From IMG/VR virus record IMGVR_UViG_3300029624_000204, positions 1 to 41,980 of that record: a stretch of 41,980 nt of DNA; one strand, given 5' to 3'. The DNA is from a virus. Of this stretch, positions 534 to 37,998 are shown piece by piece; the stretch's first letter is position 1; each line of letters opens with the position of its first letter. Position numbers and translations under genes: made by a program. The notes beneath the pieces were generated by a model. It did no database searches and had not been told where the DNA came from. It saw nothing but the letters and a program-made list of their open reading frames with translations.

Positions 534-1616
534 CTAAAGATCGTCGCTCCATTCTTCGTCCAGAGACTCAGGCGGAGGCAGATGCCCGTAAAAGGCTTGC
601 CTATGAAGATGGATATTGATCCTCGCTGCATACATCTTTTGCATTGAGTCGATAGCGAAGGGCTGACCGTCCGCCGTGTCCTCAATCATTTGTTCACCCC
701 AGATCCCCAATCCGCCATCCCAATATTGGCTGCTAACAACTCTCTCAGCAGCAACTCTAAGGTCGACAGACTCGGCCTGGTCTCGAGCAATTGCCCAGGA
801 TGTATCAGTAGGATAATCAATCCTGTGTTTGGGTTGCCTAGCATGTCCGTACGAACGCGGACGTGTGGTTCCCCAATCTCCAAAAATTAATCTAGGATGG
901 TTTGTGACCTGACGAATTTGGCCAAGGAGGTCGCGGTTTCCAAATCCGCAGTTTGACAGACCGTCAAATTCAGTAAAATCCTTAGGGAAAGAGGTACAAG
1001 AAATCCCGATTGGAATTTCGGTAGATACCTCTCTTAGCAAAGTCTGAAGGTAACCTGTCGCTACTGCGGCCAAAAGAAGTGGGTTCTGAACCCATCCAAA
1101 TTCTAGGACAACCAAAAAGTCGACGGCGCCTTCGGCAACCAGCTCATCAACGAGTATTTGCATCCAAGGCGGCATTCCAGAACCAATTCCTTCTGCAAAG
1201 TTCAACCTAATGCAAAAAGATCGGCCTTTCTCGCGAGCCCAAGCGATTTGAGCACGAGCTGACTCGATGGTCTGCTCTGCCATCAACAAGCAAGGCTGGG
1301 CATTTGGATATTCGTCAATTACTGACCACCAGGTTTCCAAATGCGCAGGTTTCGCGGCAATACGAGCCCACTGTTCCTTTGCTTCAGTCACATTGTCGTT
1401 GACTTGGTAGTAGGTATCCACATCCACAAGATATGGACGGCCTGGATATACCTCCTCGAACTTGTCGAGGGCCCGCGTTAGTGGCGATGTAGACAACCAA
1501 GGGGCAAGCAAAATCAGTGGTGTAAGTGCGTCTTTTGTCCCCCCGGGCAACTCCTTGATGGCGTTAAGTTCGGCAGGGCGGATGCACAACGTTGCTAAGT
1601 ATTCTTGGACATCCAT
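534..1616 (-). CDS. Beta-family protein (PF14350-like)
   Basis: A 360-aa soluble protein without signal peptide or membrane segment. Overall pattern (alternating strand/helix, MPPWMQILVDEL region, FGDWGTTRPR motif near residue 245, YWDGGLGIWGEQMI near 300) matches the Beta_protein family, named after a T4 protein and common in prophage and defence-associated bacterial loci. Biochemical function is unknown. It starts 11 nt after the ImmA/IrrE stop, and its ribosome site (AAGTGAG) overlaps the end of that gene, so the two are probably co-translated. The pairing with a metalloprotease and a membrane protein suggests a multi-component accessory system (defence, exclusion or regulation). The family call is from memory of the pattern; the function is not established. 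Confidence 0.65.
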   Translation of the reverse strand: MDVQEYLATLCIRPAELNAIKELPGGTKDALTPLILLAPWLSTSPLTRALDKFEEVYPGRPYLVDVDTYYQVNDNVTEAKEQWARIAAKPAHLETWWSVIDEYPNAQPCLLMAEQTIESARAQIAWAREKGRSFCIRLNFAEGIGSGMPPWMQILVDELVAEGAVDFLVVLEFGWVQNPLLLAAVATGYLQTLLREVSTEIPIGISCTSFPKDFTEFDGLSNCGFGNRDLLGQIRQVTNHPRLIFGDWGTTRPRSYGHARQPKHRIDYPTDTSWAIARDQAESVDLRVAAERVVSSQYWDGGLGIWGEQMIEDTADGQPFAIDSMQKMYAARINIHLHRQAFYGHLPPPESLDEEWSDDL

Positions 1617-1627
1617 ATAAATCTCAC

Positions 1628-2176
1628 TTAATTCATTTGAAGTTTAATTTCCATTGCAGCCGTTGACACTCCAAATCTTTTAGCAAGATCTTCAATCATC
1701 TCACTAGTAATTGGGCCAACGTAGTCACGCGTCGCTTCGAAAAGTTTATCGGATGGAATAACAAGATCTGAAGCCAACCTATTTGCTTCAAATTCAATAT
1801 TGGCTGGCTGGCCAGACCTCAGCAGCACATTCTCAGACCAGCCTCCAGATGCAATGATCCTATCTTGGTGAAGCAAGAAATGAGCGATTTCATGAGCTAG
1901 AGTGAAGCGTTGCCTGTATTTTGCTTCATGTCGGTTGATCTTAATAACAAATTGGCCGTCTTCTTGCCCAATTTGACCCGACACACCTCTTGGCAGTGTA
2001 GAAACAAGCACACGAACTCCAAGAGCCTTAGCTAAAGCACCAAGCCTCACAGGGTATTCTTTTAAAAAATCATCAATTATTTTTCGCGTATGGTCTGGGA
2101 GATTCGAAAACTCCCGAGAAGGAGCTTTTACTTCCCAATCACCAGATTGAGTTTTGAGATCTACCGCTCCATACAT
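1628..2176 (-). CDS. ImmA/IrrE family metallopeptidase
   Basis: A 182-aa Zn-dependent protease. The HEIAH motif at residues 95-99 gives two zinc ligands and the catalytic Glu; the downstream IEFEANRLASDLVIP motif (128-142) supplies the third ligand (probably E130). The C-terminus (LAKRFGVSTAAMEIKLQ) is the usual HTH-like tail of the family. Family members cleave repressors: ImmA cuts ImmR in ICEBs1, IrrE cuts DdrO in Deinococcus. There is no XRE repressor next to it; the only recognised one is the S24 phage repressor 31 kb away. The neighbours are a two-TM protein upstream (24-nt gap) and a Beta protein downstream. Its ATG follows an AGGTG ribosome site at 5 nt. Substrate unknown; the neighbouring proteins or a host regulator are candidates. 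Confidence 0.9.
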   Translation of the reverse strand: MYGAVDLKTQSGDWEVKAPSREFSNLPDHTRKIIDDFLKEYPVRLGALAKALGVRVLVSTLPRGVSGQIGQEDGQFVIKINRHEAKYRQRFTLAHEIAHFLLHQDRIIASGGWSENVLLRSGQPANIEFEANRLASDLVIPSDKLFEATRDYVGPITSEMIEDLAKRFGVSTAAMEIKLQMN

Positions 2177-2200: not shown

Positions 2201-2725
2201 TTATTCGTCGTCGCCATTTAACTGTTCGGGATCGGAAATTCCACCGCCAGTTTGCATTCGTACAACAACTCGTTCCAACACTTCATCCAGCGCGCCAGAC
2301 TTAGCCATGTCGCTCAGAATTCTATGACCCGTCTGCTCATCAATTAATGCCGTTTTCAAAGCGGGTGGCAATATGGCTTCTACATTCACCCTTACGCTTG
2401 GCGCCAGTTCCGTCTCCATGGTCTCCGCAATCTTGTCTGCGGCAGCTGCCTTGGCCGACGTCGCTGCTTCGGACTTTATTTCTCGCAACGTTTTAAGCGC
2501 GACCAGACCGATTACAAGTGCGCCAACGGTCACGGCTAAACCTATGCCGCCCAAAAAGATCGTCACGACCGTAAGGATCAAATCCACATAGTCAGCGCGC
2601 GACGGCTCCAAGTAGGACAACTGCCCTCTTGTCTCCAACCCCCAGCCGAAGACGACCATAATTAGGACAACTGCAGCAAGCCCACCAACTACGGCGCCAA
2701 AGATCAATGAGGCAATTTTACCCAT
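2201..2725 (-). CDS. two-TM membrane protein with long cytoplasmic tail
   Basis: A 174-aa protein with two hydrophobic segments (about 4-27 and 46-76), followed by an Ala/Lys/Glu-rich helical stretch (80-110) and an acidic C-terminus. No family recognised. It is the first gene of the ImmA/Beta operon and lies directly behind the promoter-like sequence and LexA box at 2771-2814. The architecture (membrane anchor plus coiled tail) would suit a sensor, anchor or pore component partnered with the protease. Its ribosome site is weak (GGTTGG). Confidence 0.75.
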   Translation of the reverse strand: MGKIASLIFGAVVGGLAAVVLIMVVFGWGLETRGQLSYLEPSRADYVDLILTVVTIFLGGIGLAVTVGALVIGLVALKTLREIKSEAATSAKAAAADKIAETMETELAPSVRVNVEAILPPALKTALIDEQTGHRILSDMAKSGALDEVLERVVVRMQTGGGISDPEQLNGDDE

Positions 2726-2770: not shown

Positions 2771-2785
2771 GAACATTACAGGAAC
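2771..2785 (-). promoter_or_regulatory. LexA box (GAAC-N7-GAAC)
   Basis: The plus strand reads GAACATTACAGGAAC (minus strand GTTC-N7-GTTC), an exact match to the alphaproteobacterial LexA operator consensus. It abuts the putative -10 (2786-2791) and lies 46 nt upstream of the two-TM gene start, where a repressor would block transcription. Eight fixed bases would occur by chance about once in a window this size, so the position, not the match alone, is the argument. Confidence 0.6.
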
Positions 2786-2814
2786 ATGTTAACGAATTTT
2801 GCTGCAGAGCTCAA
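2786..2814 (-). promoter_or_regulatory. putative sigma70 promoter of the ImmA/Beta operon
   Basis: On the minus strand TTGAGC (2814-2809) is followed, after exactly 17 nt, by TAACAT (2791-2786). Each matches consensus at 4 of 6 positions. It lies in the 109-nt gap after the lysis cassette and just upstream of the LexA box. This would allow expression from the lysogen independent of late transcription. Confidence 0.35.
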
Positions 2815-2834
2815 TTAGAGCGAGCGTAGCTGCG

Positions 2835-3086
2835 TTAAGGCCACTTGACACCGGACAGCAACTTGTAAAGTCCAGCCAACGCTAATGCCCCCACAACGGT
2901 GTTGATCATCTTGCCCTTGACGCTCGATGTTCCTTTCCGCAAGTCACGCAGAAAGTGCATGTCTTTCTGCGCTTCAATGGTGTTGTCGATATCAACACCG
3001 AGCGCTTTGAGCACTTCTTGGGCCGCTTCCCGGCCGCCTTCTTTGCCACCTTCGCGGGCTATCTCCCGCCACTGATCTTCGTTCAA
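2835..3086 (-). CDS. small lysis-region membrane protein (DUF6127-like)
   Basis: An 83-aa protein with a charged N-terminal helix (Gly/Glu/Arg-rich), a central LRDLRKG motif and one C-terminal hydrophobic segment (about 60-78, MINTVVGALALAGLYKLL). This resembles the DUF6127-type proteins found in lysis regions of alphaproteobacterial prophages. The start is TTG, forming a TTGA overlap with the Rz1 stop, so it is translationally coupled to the spanin. It might be a second holin, an antiholin or a spanin accessory; the sequence does not decide. Confidence 0.65.
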   Translation of the reverse strand: MNEDQWREIAREGGKEGGREAAQEVLKALGVDIDNTIEAQKDMHFLRDLRKGTSSVKGKMINTVVGALALAGLYKLLSGVKWP

Positions 3087-4411: not shown

Positions 4412-4840
4412 CTAGATCGTTTGGAAAAATCCCCAAAGATCGTCCACAACCTCAGGCGTGAGACCAAGGGCAGCGCTTATCTGGATCACCAGAGGGTGCA
4501 ACCGCTCATACTCGTTTGCGGTCCGCCAGTCGATACTAGCTCGTTTACGCTCGTCTACGTCGGGTATCGCGGCAATGATCGCTTCAACGTCTTCCTCGTC
4601 CGTTTGGACGGATAGAAGACCGTGACGAAGTTGCCGCGCGCTCACTGTCGACATTTGCTCGCGCAATTCATCCAGCGTCGGGGGAAAATGAACCCATTCT
4701 CCATCAATCCATTCGTAGTGATCGCCGGGCTTGAGCGGAACAATTATGGTCCCTGCCGGGTACGAAGCCAGGATATGCGCCGCCGGCTCGTTGGTGGTTT
4801 GCCAATAGCCGCGATCAGGATGGTAGAAGCCTTGTTCCAT
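4412..4840 (-). CDS. tail fibre accessory/assembly protein
   Basis: A 142-aa soluble protein. The start is the ATG at 4840 (GAGG ribosome site 5 nt away), two nt after the fibre stop. The N-terminus (about 1-60) is aromatic and Gly/Pro-rich (GFYHPDRGYWQT...), and the C-terminal half is helical (DERKRASIDWRTANEYERLHPLV...LGLTPEVVDDLWGF), a module I associate with proteins encoded directly behind fibres in many tailed phages. By position it is probably a chaperone or small tip protein for the collagen-like fibre. Not confidently assigned to a family. Confidence 0.6.
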   Translation of the reverse strand: MEQGFYHPDRGYWQTTNEPAAHILASYPAGTIIVPLKPGDHYEWIDGEWVHFPPTLDELREQMSTVSARQLRHGLLSVQTDEEDVEAIIAAIPDVDERKRASIDWRTANEYERLHPLVIQISAALGLTPEVVDDLWGFFQTI

Positions 4841-4842
4841 TG

Positions 4843-6939
4843 TTACCTCAGTTCGTACCACATGATTTTGGATCCGCCGGAGCACCTGTAGTAAAGGCCA
4901 TCAGGGACAATGAAGCTGCTTGTACCGACGTGCGAGTTTCCGCCGGCCCGGCCCCGGGTGTACCAAGACGAGTTATTGGTCGAGACCTGAAAGCTTGTCG
5001 GGCTCCGGTCGCCGGCAGCAACCGCAATCATGATTGGGCGACCGGTGGTGTTCTGGTAGCTGGTGTTGAAGCTCCGAGATGGGGCCTGCCAAGTCTGCTT
5101 GGAAAACCCGCCACCAACGGCAACATAGTTTCCGTTGTTCTCCTCCAACATGAATTCATTCCGGCTATCGTCCCATCCAAACGTTCGCCAAGTATTTGAG
5201 TTGTCGTCGTAAAAGTGGATCCAACTGTCACCACCACCATTCTTACCCACATAGATGATGTCATAGGCATAGAATTGGTTCGCATAGACACGGGAGTTCG
5301 CGGCACCTTTGTAATTGGTGTCAGAGCAAAAGTGCCATGCGTTGCCACCGTCGTCATGCCAGATGTGGTCTACGTTGGTTGATGTTTTGATGTCAGCGTA
5401 TGAGCCGCCATCATCCGCCGCGAAGACACCATTTCCGGACACGACGTCCATTCCAATGTTGCCTGTAGTCGGACCGGCAACCCCTTGAGGCCCCTGCGGT
5501 CCGGTCGCTCCAACCGCGCCAGTATCACCTTTGGACGCCAGCAATCCCCAATCATCCGGCGAATTGCTTGGGTTCTTCCCCACATTGACAGTCAACGAGA
5601 TGTACGAAGAGCCATTATAGGTCACCGTCTCATCTGAGTTGTACGTATCGCCAGAGGACCATAGACCGCGGTAGATCAAGCCGGGGTCGCCCTGCGGGCC
5701 TTGTGCACCCTGCGCACCTGTCGGCCCTTGTGCGCCTGTATCGCCTTTCGGTCCTTGAATGCCTTCTGGCCCTTGCGCCCCCTGCGGCCCCTCTGGTCCC
5801 TGAATACCTTGCTGCCCCTGCAGGCCCCGTTCACCACGAGAGGCAACAATGTCCCATTCGGCCGCGGCATCTTCCGGAGTGACGCCGGTATTGTCCGCAA
5901 CGCAGATGAAATAGGAGCCATCGTGAAAAACGGTGTCTCGCACGATATAGGCGTTGGAGTTGTTCCAGGTTCCCTTATGGTTCATCCCGACCGGACCGGC
6001 CGGACCCTGCAATCCCTGCGGACCCTGCAGGCCTTGAGGGCCACGCCCAAAAGGAACACCGGCCGACCAGGTGCCCACTTCGTTGGAAAGCTTGAAATAG
6101 ACCGTGCCGGTTTCCACGTCGAGAAACGAGAAATTGGCCGGCTCCGCATTGTAGGCGTCTCGGTCCGCGGTCAGGCCGGACGCGTCCGGATCAAAGGACT
6201 TGCCAATTGGCCCCTCCGGACCCTGAGGCCCCTGAACGCCGATCGGACCTTGTGCGCCTGTCGGCCCCGCCGGCCCTTCTGGACCGCGCGGCCCTTCCGG
6301 TCCCTGCAGGCCTGTCGGCCCCCTTGGGCCTTCATAGCCGACCGGTCCGCGTTCGCCCTGCGGCCCCTGCGGCCCTTCCGGACCTTGGGCGCCAATTGGA
6401 CCAACCGGCCCTTGATCGCCAACCGGGCCTTTCGGTCCCTGTGCGCCCGGCAGGTTCGCAATTTCGAGCACCTGTTGAAGGGTTGGAATATCCGCGTTGT
6501 CCGCAGCTTCAATTCCATTGATCACGCGCCGGCCGGCCAGATTAAAGCCGCCGTCCCTTTCCATCAGCGCTCGAGTAGCCACCGACTGCATATTGATTGC
6601 AGTGCGGTCCATTGCCCGTTCCATTACAGCCGGGTCAATCTCTCCACCTGCCAGGCTGTAAGGCTGCTCAAAATCACTGACCAAAAGGACTGTGAGCATT
6701 TCCCCTGTCTGCAAGGATATTGGATCGAAGAAAACTGTTCCGGTCGCAAAGCTTCCGCCCGAGAAGTACCAGTTCCCCGGGCTTTGCTGGAAAGTCCAGA
6801 TAGTGTTCACGCCTTCGGCGTTTGTGTGAACGACCTGCAAATTTGTCTGGTCGACAAACTGAAAAGGCAGGTCGACACGGTCCGTCATGCCGTCGCCCAG
6901 GATTTGGACACGGCCTGCGGTCAAGGCTGCTACTGTCAT
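4843..6939 (-). CDS. collagen-like tail fibre with two CBM5/12-type modules
   Basis: A 698-aa receptor-binding protein. Residues 1-164: T7-fibre-like tail-attachment region. Then four Gly-X-Y collagen-like blocks at about 165-246, 298-318, 369-420 and 471-490. Between blocks lie a 45-residue connector (250-297, ending in AGVPFGRG) and two modules at 323-368 and 423-470 with the W...Y..D/E.V.Y/H.G.SY......N.G..P......W pattern of chitin-binding CBM5/12 domains. Residues 491-698 are an aromatic, Asn/Gly-rich C-terminal knob, the probable receptor-binding tip. Collagen blocks would form trimeric rods. The low-complexity repeats make this gene prone to recombination and domain exchange. It sits after the ejection-protein gene and before the accessory protein, as gp17 does in T7. 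Confidence 0.85.
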   Translation of the reverse strand: MTVAALTAGRVQILGDGMTDRVDLPFQFVDQTNLQVVHTNAEGVNTIWTFQQSPGNWYFSGGSFATGTVFFDPISLQTGEMLTVLLVSDFEQPYSLAGGEIDPAVMERAMDRTAINMQSVATRALMERDGGFNLAGRRVINGIEAADNADIPTLQQVLEIANLPGAQGPKGPVGDQGPVGPIGAQGPEGPQGPQGERGPVGYEGPRGPTGLQGPEGPRGPEGPAGPTGAQGPIGVQGPQGPEGPIGKSFDPDASGLTADRDAYNAEPANFSFLDVETGTVYFKLSNEVGTWSAGVPFGRGPQGLQGPQGLQGPAGPVGMNHKGTWNNSNAYIVRDTVFHDGSYFICVADNTGVTPEDAAAEWDIVASRGERGLQGQQGIQGPEGPQGAQGPEGIQGPKGDTGAQGPTGAQGAQGPQGDPGLIYRGLWSSGDTYNSDETVTYNGSSYISLTVNVGKNPSNSPDDWGLLASKGDTGAVGATGPQGPQGVAGPTTGNIGMDVVSGNGVFAADDGGSYADIKTSTNVDHIWHDDGGNAWHFCSDTNYKGAANSRVYANQFYAYDIIYVGKNGGGDSWIHFYDDNSNTWRTFGWDDSRNEFMLEENNGNYVAVGGGFSKQTWQAPSRSFNTSYQNTTGRPIMIAVAAGDRSPTSFQVSTNNSSWYTRGRAGGNSHVGTSSFIVPDGLYYRCSGGSKIMWYELR

Positions 6940-33622: not shown

Positions 33623-33710
33623 ACTGGAACAAGCGGCACCGCTAGCGGTTTAAGTCTGCCGAAAGCTGCGCCTTTGGGAAACGCCGCTGACAATGCAAAA
33701 CCACAAAAAT

Positions 33711-33743
33711 CAACATTATTTATGTCAACATGATTTATGTCGT
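33711..33743. promoter_or_regulatory. repressor operator block A (left early promoter)
   Basis: Two tandem inverted-repeat sites ACAT-N5-ATGT at 33713-33725 and 33728-33740, 15 bp centre to centre, between the repressor and the leftward early genes. A 33-nt stretch here matches the reverse complement of block B (38396-38428) at about 28 positions. A degenerate third site and TTGAC hexamers lie toward the repressor start. Two spaced palindromes at both early promoters are what a dimeric CI-type repressor would use. Confidence 0.75.
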
Positions 33744-33764
33744 AAATATGTCTAAGTCAACACA

Positions 33765-34487
33765 ATGGCTGTTGACAACATGAAATCAATTGGGGACCGT
33801 TTGCGAGAAGCGCGCATAGCTGCCGGATACCGGAGCATGACCGCTGCGGCTGAGCGTGTGGGCATGACGGCATCGACCTACCGGGCGCACGAAAACGGAC
33901 AGAACGATTTTGATCGCCAACAAGCGAAGCACTATGCGGACGCATTCGGTGTCTCCGCTGACTGGCTCCTGTTCGGTGGCGACAAGGATTTCAAGAGTTG
34001 GTCTCTGTCCAAGAACGGCAGAGAACCATTAGGCTCCCAACTCCCTGCTTTAAAATTTGCGGGCGATGTAGCTGCCGGCTTATGGCTTGAAGCAGATCTA
34101 TTTGAAAATGAAAAGACTGAACTCTCAACTATGGTTGGCGGTGATCAGCGCTTCCCTTTGAGTTTCCAGTACCTATTCAACATCAAGGGCGAGAGCTTGA
34201 ACCGCATCGCCCTGGATGGCGATCAGATCCTGTGCGTCGACTACGCACAGGCTGGGATTGATCTGAAATCAGGTGACTTGGTTGTTGTCGAGCGATCGAG
34301 GGATGGCGGACAGACAATCGAAAGAACAGCAAAACGCATTGTAAGGCACAACGGTGAGATTGAGTTACGCCCCGAAAGCACTGATCCTCGATTTCAAGAA
34401 CCAGTCATCTTCAACGAACACAGCGAAGAGGCCACTGAAGTGCGGATAATCGCTAAGGTTCTAAAAATCATTCGAGAGATTGCGTAG
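33765..34487 (+). CDS. S24 (CI/LexA-type) phage repressor
   Basis: A 240-aa protein with an N-terminal XRE-type HTH (about 6-68: IGDRLREARIAAGYRSMTAAAERVGMTASTYRAHENG) and a C-terminal S24 peptidase domain. The catalytic dyad is S144 (KGESLNRI) and K190 (ERTAKRIV), and an Ala-Gly bond at 104-105 (DVAAGLW) is the likely self-cleavage site. RecA filaments would trigger cleavage and induction. No ribosome site precedes the ATG, so the message may be leaderless like lambda cI from PRM. The start lies 22 nt from operator block A, allowing autoregulation. Confidence 0.9.
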   Translation: MAVDNMKSIGDRLREARIAAGYRSMTAAAERVGMTASTYRAHENGQNDFDRQQAKHYADAFGVSADWLLFGGDKDFKSWSLSKNGREPLGSQLPALKFAGDVAAGLWLEADLFENEKTELSTMVGGDQRFPLSFQYLFNIKGESLNRIALDGDQILCVDYAQAGIDLKSGDLVVVERSRDGGQTIERTAKRIVRHNGEIELRPESTDPRFQEPVIFNEHSEEATEVRIIAKVLKIIREIA

Positions 34488-35103: not shown

Positions 35104-37173
35104 TTAGCCTGCAACAGTCACGATGACCTTGTTGCCCTCCATACGTGCGGTGCCTTCGGCGCCAAACAGGAGAATTTCGTCAAAGCTGCCGGTGATCGCT
35201 GCGGCATCAAGAACGGTGATCTCGTGACCTGCCGGGACATTGGTCAGATCTACTTCGAGGGAACCGCCTTCGATATCCAAGGCACCTTTCAGGGAAAGAC
35301 CTGCTTCCCCAACAGAAATCGCACCCGCTTTGATCAGGACATCGCCGTTGCCGAACGCAGTATTGGTCGCAGCTCTGAGCGTACCACCCTCGATCAGAAC
35401 GCCACCGCCAAAGCTATTGTTACCCGCCAGCGTCAGCGTACCGTCGCCTGCCAGTGTGAGCATACCGGGACCGGAGATATCGTTGCTCCAGACGTCGGCC
35501 GCGTTGAAATACCCTTTGGATGCATCCAGGGTGACAGCAACGTCACCTGCAAATGCGCCATAGCCATTGCCTGCTGCAACGAGGTTCAGGCGCCCCCAGC
35601 CGTTGGTTTTGTCTAGCAGCGGATAGCCAGAGTCGAGCGAGGTGGTCGCCAGAACGGCACGGCGCTGCATTGGGCTCAGATAGGGCAGACGGCTCGCCAG
35701 CAAGGCCTCAGCCCCCTCAGGAACGATCGCGGGCAGGCCCTTTTCGCCTGTCTGTGGCAAACCATAGGTCAGGCGGAAAGTATAGTCGGCTTCCACCTGC
35801 TTCAGGTCGTCAAAGCGATTGTTGTTGAACACGTCAACATTCAGCACTTCGACACCATCTTGCATCGTGCGCAGACCATGATCGGTTTCAGCCGGGCGGT
35901 TGGCATAGGCCAGCAGGGACAGTCCCGCAGCTTCGGCTTGGGGGGTAAAATGCGCCCGTGTCTGGCGATAGGCCAGATCTGCAGCCAACGGGTGTTCATT
36001 GAGCGCGGCCGCTGCGATCATCGTCGCCTGTACCCGGCCACCGATCACATCCACCGGCGAATGCATCCCGGACACAACCCGGCTTTCGCCCAGGTCCACG
36101 CCGCGCGCAACCAATTGGGTGAAGCGCTCGGGCATGGCGTAGGCATAGGCCAACGACGCCAGGATGCCCGCATTGGTGTGGCCTGACGGGTAGCCATTGT
36201 CTTTGCGACGGTTCTCTGTTTCGGGCGTGTACAAACCCTTTTCCTCGTGGCTGGAGGAATGCGAACGTCGGCCACAGGTCAGGCCCGGAATGATCTGGAC
36301 TGAGGTCTCATACAGGTCAAGGCGGACCTCTTTGGTGGAGCGGTCGTCGCTGAAACCATCGACACAGTCCTTGGTCTCAACACCCTGAAATACAACTTCG
36401 CCTGCGTCATTCATCCGCCAGGGGCGCGGCGTGCCATACAGGTATTTCGGACCCGAGGTCGAAGCGTGATTGTTCCGGAAGATTGACGCCAGATTGGCCA
36501 CATGGTTCAGCGGTGCATAAACAACATTGCCGCCATAGGTGGAGAAGCTATCGTTGTGGCCGGGCTTGTAATTCGTGTTGTCCAGAACGTCGGACACCAG
36601 TATTGTTTGGAAGGATGCATAAGCACCGGTATTTTGCGCGACGTCCTCTGTAAGCGGACCGAAACCGTCTATGACAGAGTAGTTCTTCGAGCGCACATCA
36701 TCCAGAAATGCATAGAGCGCTTCGTCATCGGAGCGCGCGGCTGTGCGCTTTACCACATAGGCGATGTTGGCTTCCCAAGTGGCGGCGTCTTTGATTTCGG
36801 TGCCTGGCTCCACGTAGTCGCTTGGCTGCCCGTTCGGTGCACCTGCCGGATTGGGGCCATCACCGGCCTTGTAGCCGACTTCATCGCGGCGATAATCGCC
36901 GGCGGACGTTTGCCATTTCTCAGTCGTGCCCAGCCAGACATCATTGATGCCGCGCAGTACATAGATCACAGGATTTGTATCGCGATAGAAGCGCCCGTTG
37001 CCTTCATTGCGCTCAAGGTACTCAAGTGCGGGTAGCGGCGCTTCGACGGCTGGCAACGGGACGATTTGCTCAGATCCGGTGCCTTGGGGTGCGGCCGAAA
37101 CAAGCGAAACAGTGAGCGCGCTGGCGCAAACACTGGCCATGAGAACTTTACTGTAAAAGGAGCGGTTTAGCAT
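35104..37173 (-). CDS. exported PAP2-family acid phosphatase with autotransporter-type repeat
   Basis: A 689-aa protein with a signal peptide (about 1-28, SLVSAA). The three PAP2/haloperoxidase motifs are intact: K243-x6-R250-P251, P329-S-G-H332, and S364-R365-x5-H371-x3-D375. These predict phosphomonoesterase (or vanadate haloperoxidase-like) activity. A beta-strand Gly-rich segment at about 568-640 (LAGDGTLTLAGNNSFGGGVLIEGGTL) matches the autotransporter-associated repeat, but no C-terminal barrel follows. Ribosome site CAGGA. A weak Pho-box-like CTGTTTC-ATGA-GTGACAT lies about 100 nt upstream (37273-37290). It is transcribed against the repressor gene and sits between the two operators as independent cargo. 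Confidence 0.88.
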   Translation of the reverse strand: MLNRSFYSKVLMASVCASALTVSLVSAAPQGTGSEQIVPLPAVEAPLPALEYLERNEGNGRFYRDTNPVIYVLRGINDVWLGTTEKWQTSAGDYRRDEVGYKAGDGPNPAGAPNGQPSDYVEPGTEIKDAATWEANIAYVVKRTAARSDDEALYAFLDDVRSKNYSVIDGFGPLTEDVAQNTGAYASFQTILVSDVLDNTNYKPGHNDSFSTYGGNVVYAPLNHVANLASIFRNNHASTSGPKYLYGTPRPWRMNDAGEVVFQGVETKDCVDGFSDDRSTKEVRLDLYETSVQIIPGLTCGRRSHSSSHEEKGLYTPETENRRKDNGYPSGHTNAGILASLAYAYAMPERFTQLVARGVDLGESRVVSGMHSPVDVIGGRVQATMIAAAALNEHPLAADLAYRQTRAHFTPQAEAAGLSLLAYANRPAETDHGLRTMQDGVEVLNVDVFNNNRFDDLKQVEADYTFRLTYGLPQTGEKGLPAIVPEGAEALLASRLPYLSPMQRRAVLATTSLDSGYPLLDKTNGWGRLNLVAAGNGYGAFAGDVAVTLDASKGYFNAADVWSNDISGPGMLTLAGDGTLTLAGNNSFGGGVLIEGGTLRAATNTAFGNGDVLIKAGAISVGEAGLSLKGALDIEGGSLEVDLTNVPAGHEITVLDAAAITGSFDEILLFGAEGTARMEGNKVIVTVAG

Positions 37174-37617
37174 GAAATATCCTGAGACTGAGGGTTGATC
37201 GGATTGGCAAGAACAGGCCTTGTGACCACGAACTGGCGTCTCCGGGCACTAAAAGCCTCAGGTTACGGAATGATGTCACTCATGAAACAGTTTCACAAAC
37301 TCTTGCACAGAGTTCTGCTGAAGCTGTCAGATTTGAGATTGCCTCCAGAACGGCTGCTTTCTGGAGGATCGTCGGGTTCTTTGCAGTTGCAGAGTAGCCC
37401 ATGCTGCGCTCTTCTTGAAGGTCGTAGAAGGGCCGGGAGCGGGCCTTCGCTTCGCCCGACCCGAGTATCAGCTATGGGCCGAAAGCGTCGACAAGGCACC
37501 CGACAGGTCCTGGATTGGCACGCTGCGCCGCCGCAAGTCCGCTTCGAGCCCATGTTGACCGTCAAAGTACCTGCTCCTACCATTGGCCAATGTAGCTACT
37601 TTCTTTTGGAGCGCCAT
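37174..37617. other. intergenic region of the PAP2/VOC cassette
   Basis: About 440 nt between the divergent PAP2 and VOC genes. It should hold both promoters. Contents: the weak Pho-box-like sequence (37273-37290) and copy 2 of the 76-bp repeat (37476-37551). A frame open through it toward the VOC gene is probably fortuitous. Confidence 0.5.
37476..37551 (+). repeat. 76-bp direct repeat, copy 2
   Basis: Same orientation as copy 1 at 34677-34752, with two mismatches. The repeat copies are 2799 bp apart; recombination between them would delete the phosphatase gene precisely. Confidence 0.9.
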
Positions 37618-37998
37618 GTGTTTGATCACGTCGAGTATTCCGTAAGCGATTTCTCAGCTGCTCACCGGTTTTATGTCCCCATTTTCGAAGCGATTGGCGC
37701 GCGGGTGGCGTTCTTGGACGAGAATGTCGGCGAACTAGGTATAGAAATGCAGGGTATCGTTCAGTTCTTGATCACCACGGGCGAGCCTACCCAGCCTAAA
37801 CTTCATATTTGTTTCAAGGCGTTGAACAAGGACGCCGTTCAGAAAGCCTATAATGGCGCCATTGCGGGAGGCGGTATTTGCAACGGTAAGCCGGGTTATC
37901 GTGACCACTATGCACCAGGCTACTACGCTGCGTTCGTGCTTGATCCGGATGGGCACAATGTCGAAATACTCTTTCGAGAGAAGTTGCAGTCAACCTAG
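37618..37998 (+). CDS. VOC-superfamily (glyoxalase/dioxygenase-like) protein
   Basis: A 126-aa protein. The GTG start at 37618 opens directly into the fold (FDHVEYSVSDFSAAHRFYVPIFEAIGA) and has GGAG 6 nt upstream. Second half: HICFKALNKDAVQKAYNGAIAGGG, PGYRDHYAPGYYAAFVLDPDGHNVEILF. This is the two beta-alpha-beta3 modules of VOC proteins, with H4, E-type and C-terminal Glu metal ligands plausible (H4, H80s, E in HNVE). Substrate unknown; roles in the family range from methylglyoxal detoxification to antibiotic resistance. Likely host-derived cargo. Confidence 0.82.
   Translation: MFDHVEYSVSDFSAAHRFYVPIFEAIGARVAFLDENVGELGIEMQGIVQFLITTGEPTQPKLHICFKALNKDAVQKAYNGAIAGGGICNGKPGYRDHYAPGYYAAFVLDPDGHNVEILFREKLQST

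Follow-up and report, generated by a model that had tools for sequence, protein, structure and literature searches.

A candidate host LexA operator at the promoter of a prophage-borne membrane protein–M78 peptidase–Beta module

An exact GTTC-N7-GTTC direct repeat lies at the promoter of a three-gene operon in a phage genome, and we conclude that it is very probably a host LexA operator serving a mobile membrane protein (TM)-M78-Beta module in an exchangeable cargo slot of the prophage. GTTCN7GTTC is the published LexA motif of Caulobacter (PMC12700426; PMC9578287), and the same motif recurs in front of related modules across alphaproteobacterial genomes far more often than expected by chance. 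The module is best read as related to the gop-beta-cII operon and to PD-lambda-2.

Results

The window analysed here, meaning the whole stretch of DNA, is a virus record of 41,980 bases (IMG/VR IMGVR_UViG_3300029624_000204, positions 1 to 41,980). It encodes a head-tail connector protein, terminase, endolysin, spanin, RecT, exonuclease and HTH-S24 repressor, and this set of structural, lysis, recombination and repressor genes identifies a tailed, probably temperate phage. Megablast comparison of 24 kb of the window with phages returned no match. The endolysin has its best matches in phages of Rhizobium, Sinorhizobium and Rhodobacter, the closest relatives of the module are alphaproteobacterial, and RecT resembles enterobacterial phages, a likeness that is uninformative on the host. 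Judging from these sequence relationships, the host of the prophage is most likely an alphaproteobacterium. Two frames elsewhere in the window drew our attention: a 689-aa frame (35104-37173, minus strand) combines a PAP2 phosphatase domain with an autotransporter-type passenger repeat, an unusual phage cargo with no PHROG match, and a 267-aa frame among the phage early genes (37195-37998, plus strand) carries a glyoxalase/bleomycin-resistance domain (5e-6).

The operon is read from the minus strand, and the box, which reads GAACATTACAGGAAC on the plus strand (2771-2785), begins at the base right after the -10-like hexamer with no gap, overlapping the core promoter 45 bp before the first gene, whose ATG stands at 2725 (Table 1). 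The initial annotation had described a GAAC-N7-GAAC box at this place, abutting a sigma70-like promoter with four of six matches in each hexamer and 17-nt spacing upstream of the operon; its coordinates and description of the box proved exact, and the promoter arrangement is confirmed in the sequence. A simple promoter scanner reported nothing for this promoter because its threshold is 9 of 12. With the flanks shuffled around a fixed box, an equally good promoter overlapped the box in 0.5% of 200 trials. The window by itself makes a weak case for the box, which is no more than chance would give: the 42-kb window holds 3 exact matches against 1.58 expected and 24 of 100 shuffles reach 3; the other two matches (234-248 and 5969-5983) fall within reading frames. 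It is the position at the promoter, together with conservation in relatives, that raises this box above chance.

Table 1. Features of the module, its promoter and the cargo boundary in the window
Feature	Position	Strand	Basis
Cargo boundary	2815..2841	.	blastn of L252 against the window: shared DNA (78.5% identity) ends at 2841, 27 bp upstream of the -35
-35-like TTGAGC	2809..2814	-	sequence, 4/6
Spacer, 17 nt	2792-2808	-	sequence
-10-like TAACAT	2786..2791	-	sequence, 4/6
Candidate LexA box GTTCCTGTAATGTTC (GTTC-N7-GTTC)	2771..2785	-	exact 8/8 match; covers the predicted transcription start
Gene 1, 174-aa membrane protein, two hydrophobic segments	2201..2725	-	translation
Gene 2, 182-aa M78 (ImmA/IrrE) zinc metallopeptidase	1628..2176	-	Pfam PF06114, 69.7 bits
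Gene 3, 360-aa Beta protein	534..1616	-	Pfam PF14350, 149 bits (cut-off 27)

The operon had been annotated as an accessory protease module, an ImmA/Beta operon. The M78 peptidase and the Beta protein are indeed both present, but the module comprises three genes, a membrane protein included, and is not a protease alone. Gene 1 has no Pfam family above cut-off, and profile comparison groups it as a single family with the genes in first place in the related alpha- and gammaproteobacterial modules (probability 98.9%). Homology of gene 1 to Gop of satellite P4 was considered and none was detected, with no phmmer match and a profile-comparison probability of 0.3%. The M78 protein has capP as its best PADLOC match (5e-29), keeps H95-E96-I-A-H99 (HExxH) and E128 invariant in an alignment of 22 relatives, and matches four PDB entries, structures of IrrE and CapP (7t5t) among them. 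Gene 3 matches 'beta' and PD-Lambda-2_C in PADLOC and the beta gene of satellite P4 by tblastn (2e-10). Searching by sequence found no solved structure for Beta; its AlphaFold model (pLDDT 85.5) is TIM-barrel-like (best Z 13.8), with invariant charged residues in the predicted barrel, and since the match is to a generic TIM barrel the fold does not indicate a function. We found no HTH domain in the three module genes or the neighbours tested, and no cII homologue in the first 8 kb of the window, where only 533 bp lie beyond Beta before the record ends. Scans of viral contigs found no relative with the Beta or membrane protein queries and four loci with the M78 query.

Conservation of the box upstream of homologous operons, which the initial annotation had put forward as a check, was examined among M78 relatives from genome contigs and among loci encoding Beta, the latter drawn from about 1,430 alphaproteobacterial genomes, with duplicates removed. 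This sample, which is not phylogenetically balanced, contained 38 alphaproteobacterial loci with the order TM-M78-Beta, as well as 12 gammaproteobacterial-type loci of the same order (11 in gammaproteobacterial genomes, the twelfth on a virus contig that groups with them). A locus was scored as positive when an exact GTTC-N7-GTTC, pointing either way, lay within the 250 bp from -150 to +100 around the annotated first-gene start. The exact box is present in 18 of the 38 alphaproteobacterial loci, namely the window and 17 others, against an average shuffle expectation of 0.24 loci (300 dinucleotide shuffles, maximum of 2 in either group); the reading thus withstood the refuting condition set in the initial annotation, homologous loci without the box. 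It is absent from the remaining 20, one of them a Micavibrio bin, placed by the tree tool under Bdellovibrionota. Furthermore, the spacing is specific, with 18 loci at N7 and 0-2 loci at any of the remaining spacers between 3 and 12 in the same regions, where the reversed motif at N7 occurs in no locus; averaged over every locus collected to that point, the background rate of exact matches was 0.015 per 250 bp. No exact box was found in the 12 gammaproteobacterial-type loci or in 9 HTH-M78-Beta (PD-lambda-2-like) loci, which have a longer protein before Beta. A search before the gammaproteobacterial loci for the LexA box of that class (CTGT-N8-ACAG, at most one mismatch) gave one weak match, 77 bases behind the annotated start.

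Where the box occurs, it tends to sit on a promoter in one of two geometries. In six loci (L009, L028, L066, L085, L098 and L121) it is nested within the 17-bp spacer, and in seven (the window, L030, L031, L039, L070, L071 and L081) it overlaps the -10 or lies just behind it. Both placements are positions where a repressor would block RNA polymerase. The mean promoter score of the 18 box loci is 6.08 compared to 5.31 after shuffling, and none of 200 shuffles reaches 6.08. In some loci the box falls within the longest open frame, and a later start codon then lies behind the box (sequences read by eye). One locus, L031, has a second exact box, GTTCTTTATTTGTTC, at position 4573, about 950 bp upstream of the module's own. 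In another (L013, G011:C1:4042700-4046489) the Beta gene is in three pieces, though an exact box stands upstream. An inverse link between the box and cII among the alphaproteobacterial loci looked attractive, with the box in 16 of 29 loci lacking cII and in 2 of 9 possessing it, but is not significant (Fisher p = 0.13, uncorrected for kinship).

As the box occurs in both orientations among the loci and its presence requires 7 changes on a tree of 50 M78 proteins (at least 5 of these changes forced by well-supported branches), it has been gained or lost repeatedly, and such gain, loss and flipping of one motif at one promoter favours selection on the motif. The window's own clade of five illustrates this turnover: the exact box is found in the window, L071 and L121, L107 has a 7/8 version and L075 has none, so that two of the four nearest relatives are without an exact box. 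L107 is the nearest of them (77% identity in the M78 protein), and its 7/8 box lies at -61, compared to -60 in the window.

Among genomes whose module bears the box, 11 of 14 have the exact motif upstream of recA; where the module is boxless, 6 of 14 do. The region of the phage S24 repressor (33700-33790) contains different repeats, TCAACATnATTTATG, which makes the box look unlike an operator of the phage itself. The initial annotation had proposed a tie to the host SOS response separate from the phage repressor, and the conservation in relatives, the recA motif and the differing repressor repeats all support it. We consider LexA control of the module promoter highly probable on these sequence grounds; LexA would be expected to bind the box and DNA damage to induce the operon. 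In the openly licensed literature, mostly represented by titles and abstract openings, we found no report of LexA control of any Beta-type module.

The module follows the lysis genes and is encoded on the minus strand. The phage terminase is common to eight virus records at 81-87% identity, and the nearest sister prophage, record G1428, has an endolysin of 88% identity. Comparison with this sister (L252, G1428:C1:1-7000) places the end of shared DNA so close upstream of the -35 that the module can be regarded as exchangeable cargo with its own promoter. Beyond the boundary L252 contains unrelated genes, three of them unknown, one an SRAP gene and one an HNH gene with matches to models of type IV restriction; some of these may be host DNA already. 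The L252 slot is a candidate for a survey of defence genes. Across flanks of 13-20 kb, the relatives examined have only the module genes in common with the window, apart from weak matches, and the full module is also found on a plasmid (L009).

Discussion

Two known systems frame the likely function of the module. The gop-beta-cII operon of satellite P4 protects against lambda and P1, and gop is toxic without beta (PMC9122126). The window module shares with it a homologous Beta, a small membrane-like protein encoded upstream and residence as mobile-element cargo (PMC9122126), and cII homologues stand convergent behind Beta in every one of the 12 relatives of gammaproteobacterial type and in 9 of the 38 alphaproteobacterial ones. 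The window module differs in that gene 1 is not detectably Gop-related, an M78 gene lies between gene 1 and Beta, no cII is seen in the window, and the promoter has a LexA box. PD-lambda-2 includes an HTH-peptidase and a P4-antitoxin-like third component, and its Beta-like PD-lambda-2C is required for defence (PMC9519451). Both encode an M78-type peptidase domain and, after it, a Beta protein (PADLOC PD-Lambda-2_B and _C), whereas the B protein of PD-lambda-2 fuses an Xre HTH to the peptidase and comes with a first gene that is HigB-like, and the window has a stand-alone M78 peptidase with a membrane protein. The CapP match likewise recalls CapH-CapP, a CBASS regulator, from which the window departs in that no CapH-type HTH gene was found beside its M78 gene among the genes tested.

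For the control itself there is a parallel in LexA-controlled higBA of Caulobacter, reportedly (Kirkpatrick, 2016) an alphaproteobacterial toxin-antitoxin module induced by DNA damage, as we would expect of the window module; higBA encodes other proteins and is chromosomal, whereas the window module is prophage cargo. LexA-controlled higBA of Caulobacter also appears in PMC13384398.

Because the same site arose repeatedly before related alphaproteobacterial modules, the damage alarm probably arms the module, and the most economical account of the locus is an abortive-infection module armed by SOS. As long as the lysogen is undamaged, host LexA sitting just behind the -10 over the transcription start would keep expression low. 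Following damage, or superinfection by a damaging phage, RecA filaments on single-stranded DNA would stimulate LexA self-cleavage and the operon would be expressed. Its products most likely form an abortive-infection or toxin-antitoxin-like module, in which the membrane protein would be the likely toxic effector, Beta its partner or antitoxin, and the M78 peptidase a trigger or regulator. The toxic role for gene 1 is an analogy, there being no detectable kinship with Gop. Antiphage defence by the module, suggested by its homologues, strikes us as moderately likely, and LexA control is better supported than the defence function. That LexA control was recruited repeatedly and independently to TM-M78-Beta modules across alphaproteobacteria, such that a Beta-type abortive infection would be armed only in SOS and prophage cargo would read the host alarm in parallel to its own repressor, is a tentative proposal that may well be true but that we stop short of calling probable.

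The box might be a genuine LexA site and the module nonetheless serve the lysis-lysogeny decision, with the SOS-induced M78 peptidase cleaving the phage repressor and so giving induction a second route. In mobile elements, M78 peptidases are known to act as antirepressors, with examples in ICEs such as ImmA, which cleaves ImmR in ICEBs1, and this prophage does have an HTH-S24 repressor. That repressor, however, is of the S24 type with a cleavage domain of its own; the boxed module also occurs outside this phage, where the flanks of its nearest relatives share the three genes and little else beyond weak matches, and on plasmid L009; and Beta, which belongs to defence systems, follows M78 in the 38 compared loci. 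We regard such a role as unlikely.

The remaining doubts concern the box. It could be inert in the window, a chance match or a decayed relic, even if it works in other loci: three exact sites against 1.58 expected, the boxless close relative L075 and hexamers of only 4/6 each point that way. Set against this are an exact 8/8 match at the very base after the -10 at a background of 0.015 matches per 250 bp, boxes in the close relatives L071 and L121 and the 7/8 version at the same distance in L107, making an inert box very unlikely. That the direct repeat serves some other repressor, belonging to the module or to the phage, and matches GTTC-N7-GTTC by coincidence is likewise highly improbable. 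The module is more widely distributed than the box, and HTH repressors often accompany M78 proteins, but the three-gene module has no HTH domain that we could find, the repeats at the phage repressor are different, and the motif stands before recA in module genomes and is missing in gammaproteobacteria, where LexA has a different motif.

A host LexA operator on the module promoter thus remains the preferred reading, and it bears on the open question of how defence modules spare their own host. Many of the known answers are regulators encoded by the module, and the window module seems to use the host SOS repressor instead, through an operator that was acquired or lost several times within a single bacterial class. 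Relatives that have the box and relatives that lack it form ready-made comparison pairs, which makes it testable whether DNA damage arms prophage-borne defence. Beta proteins, whose role is poorly understood, would thereby be linked to the SOS response.
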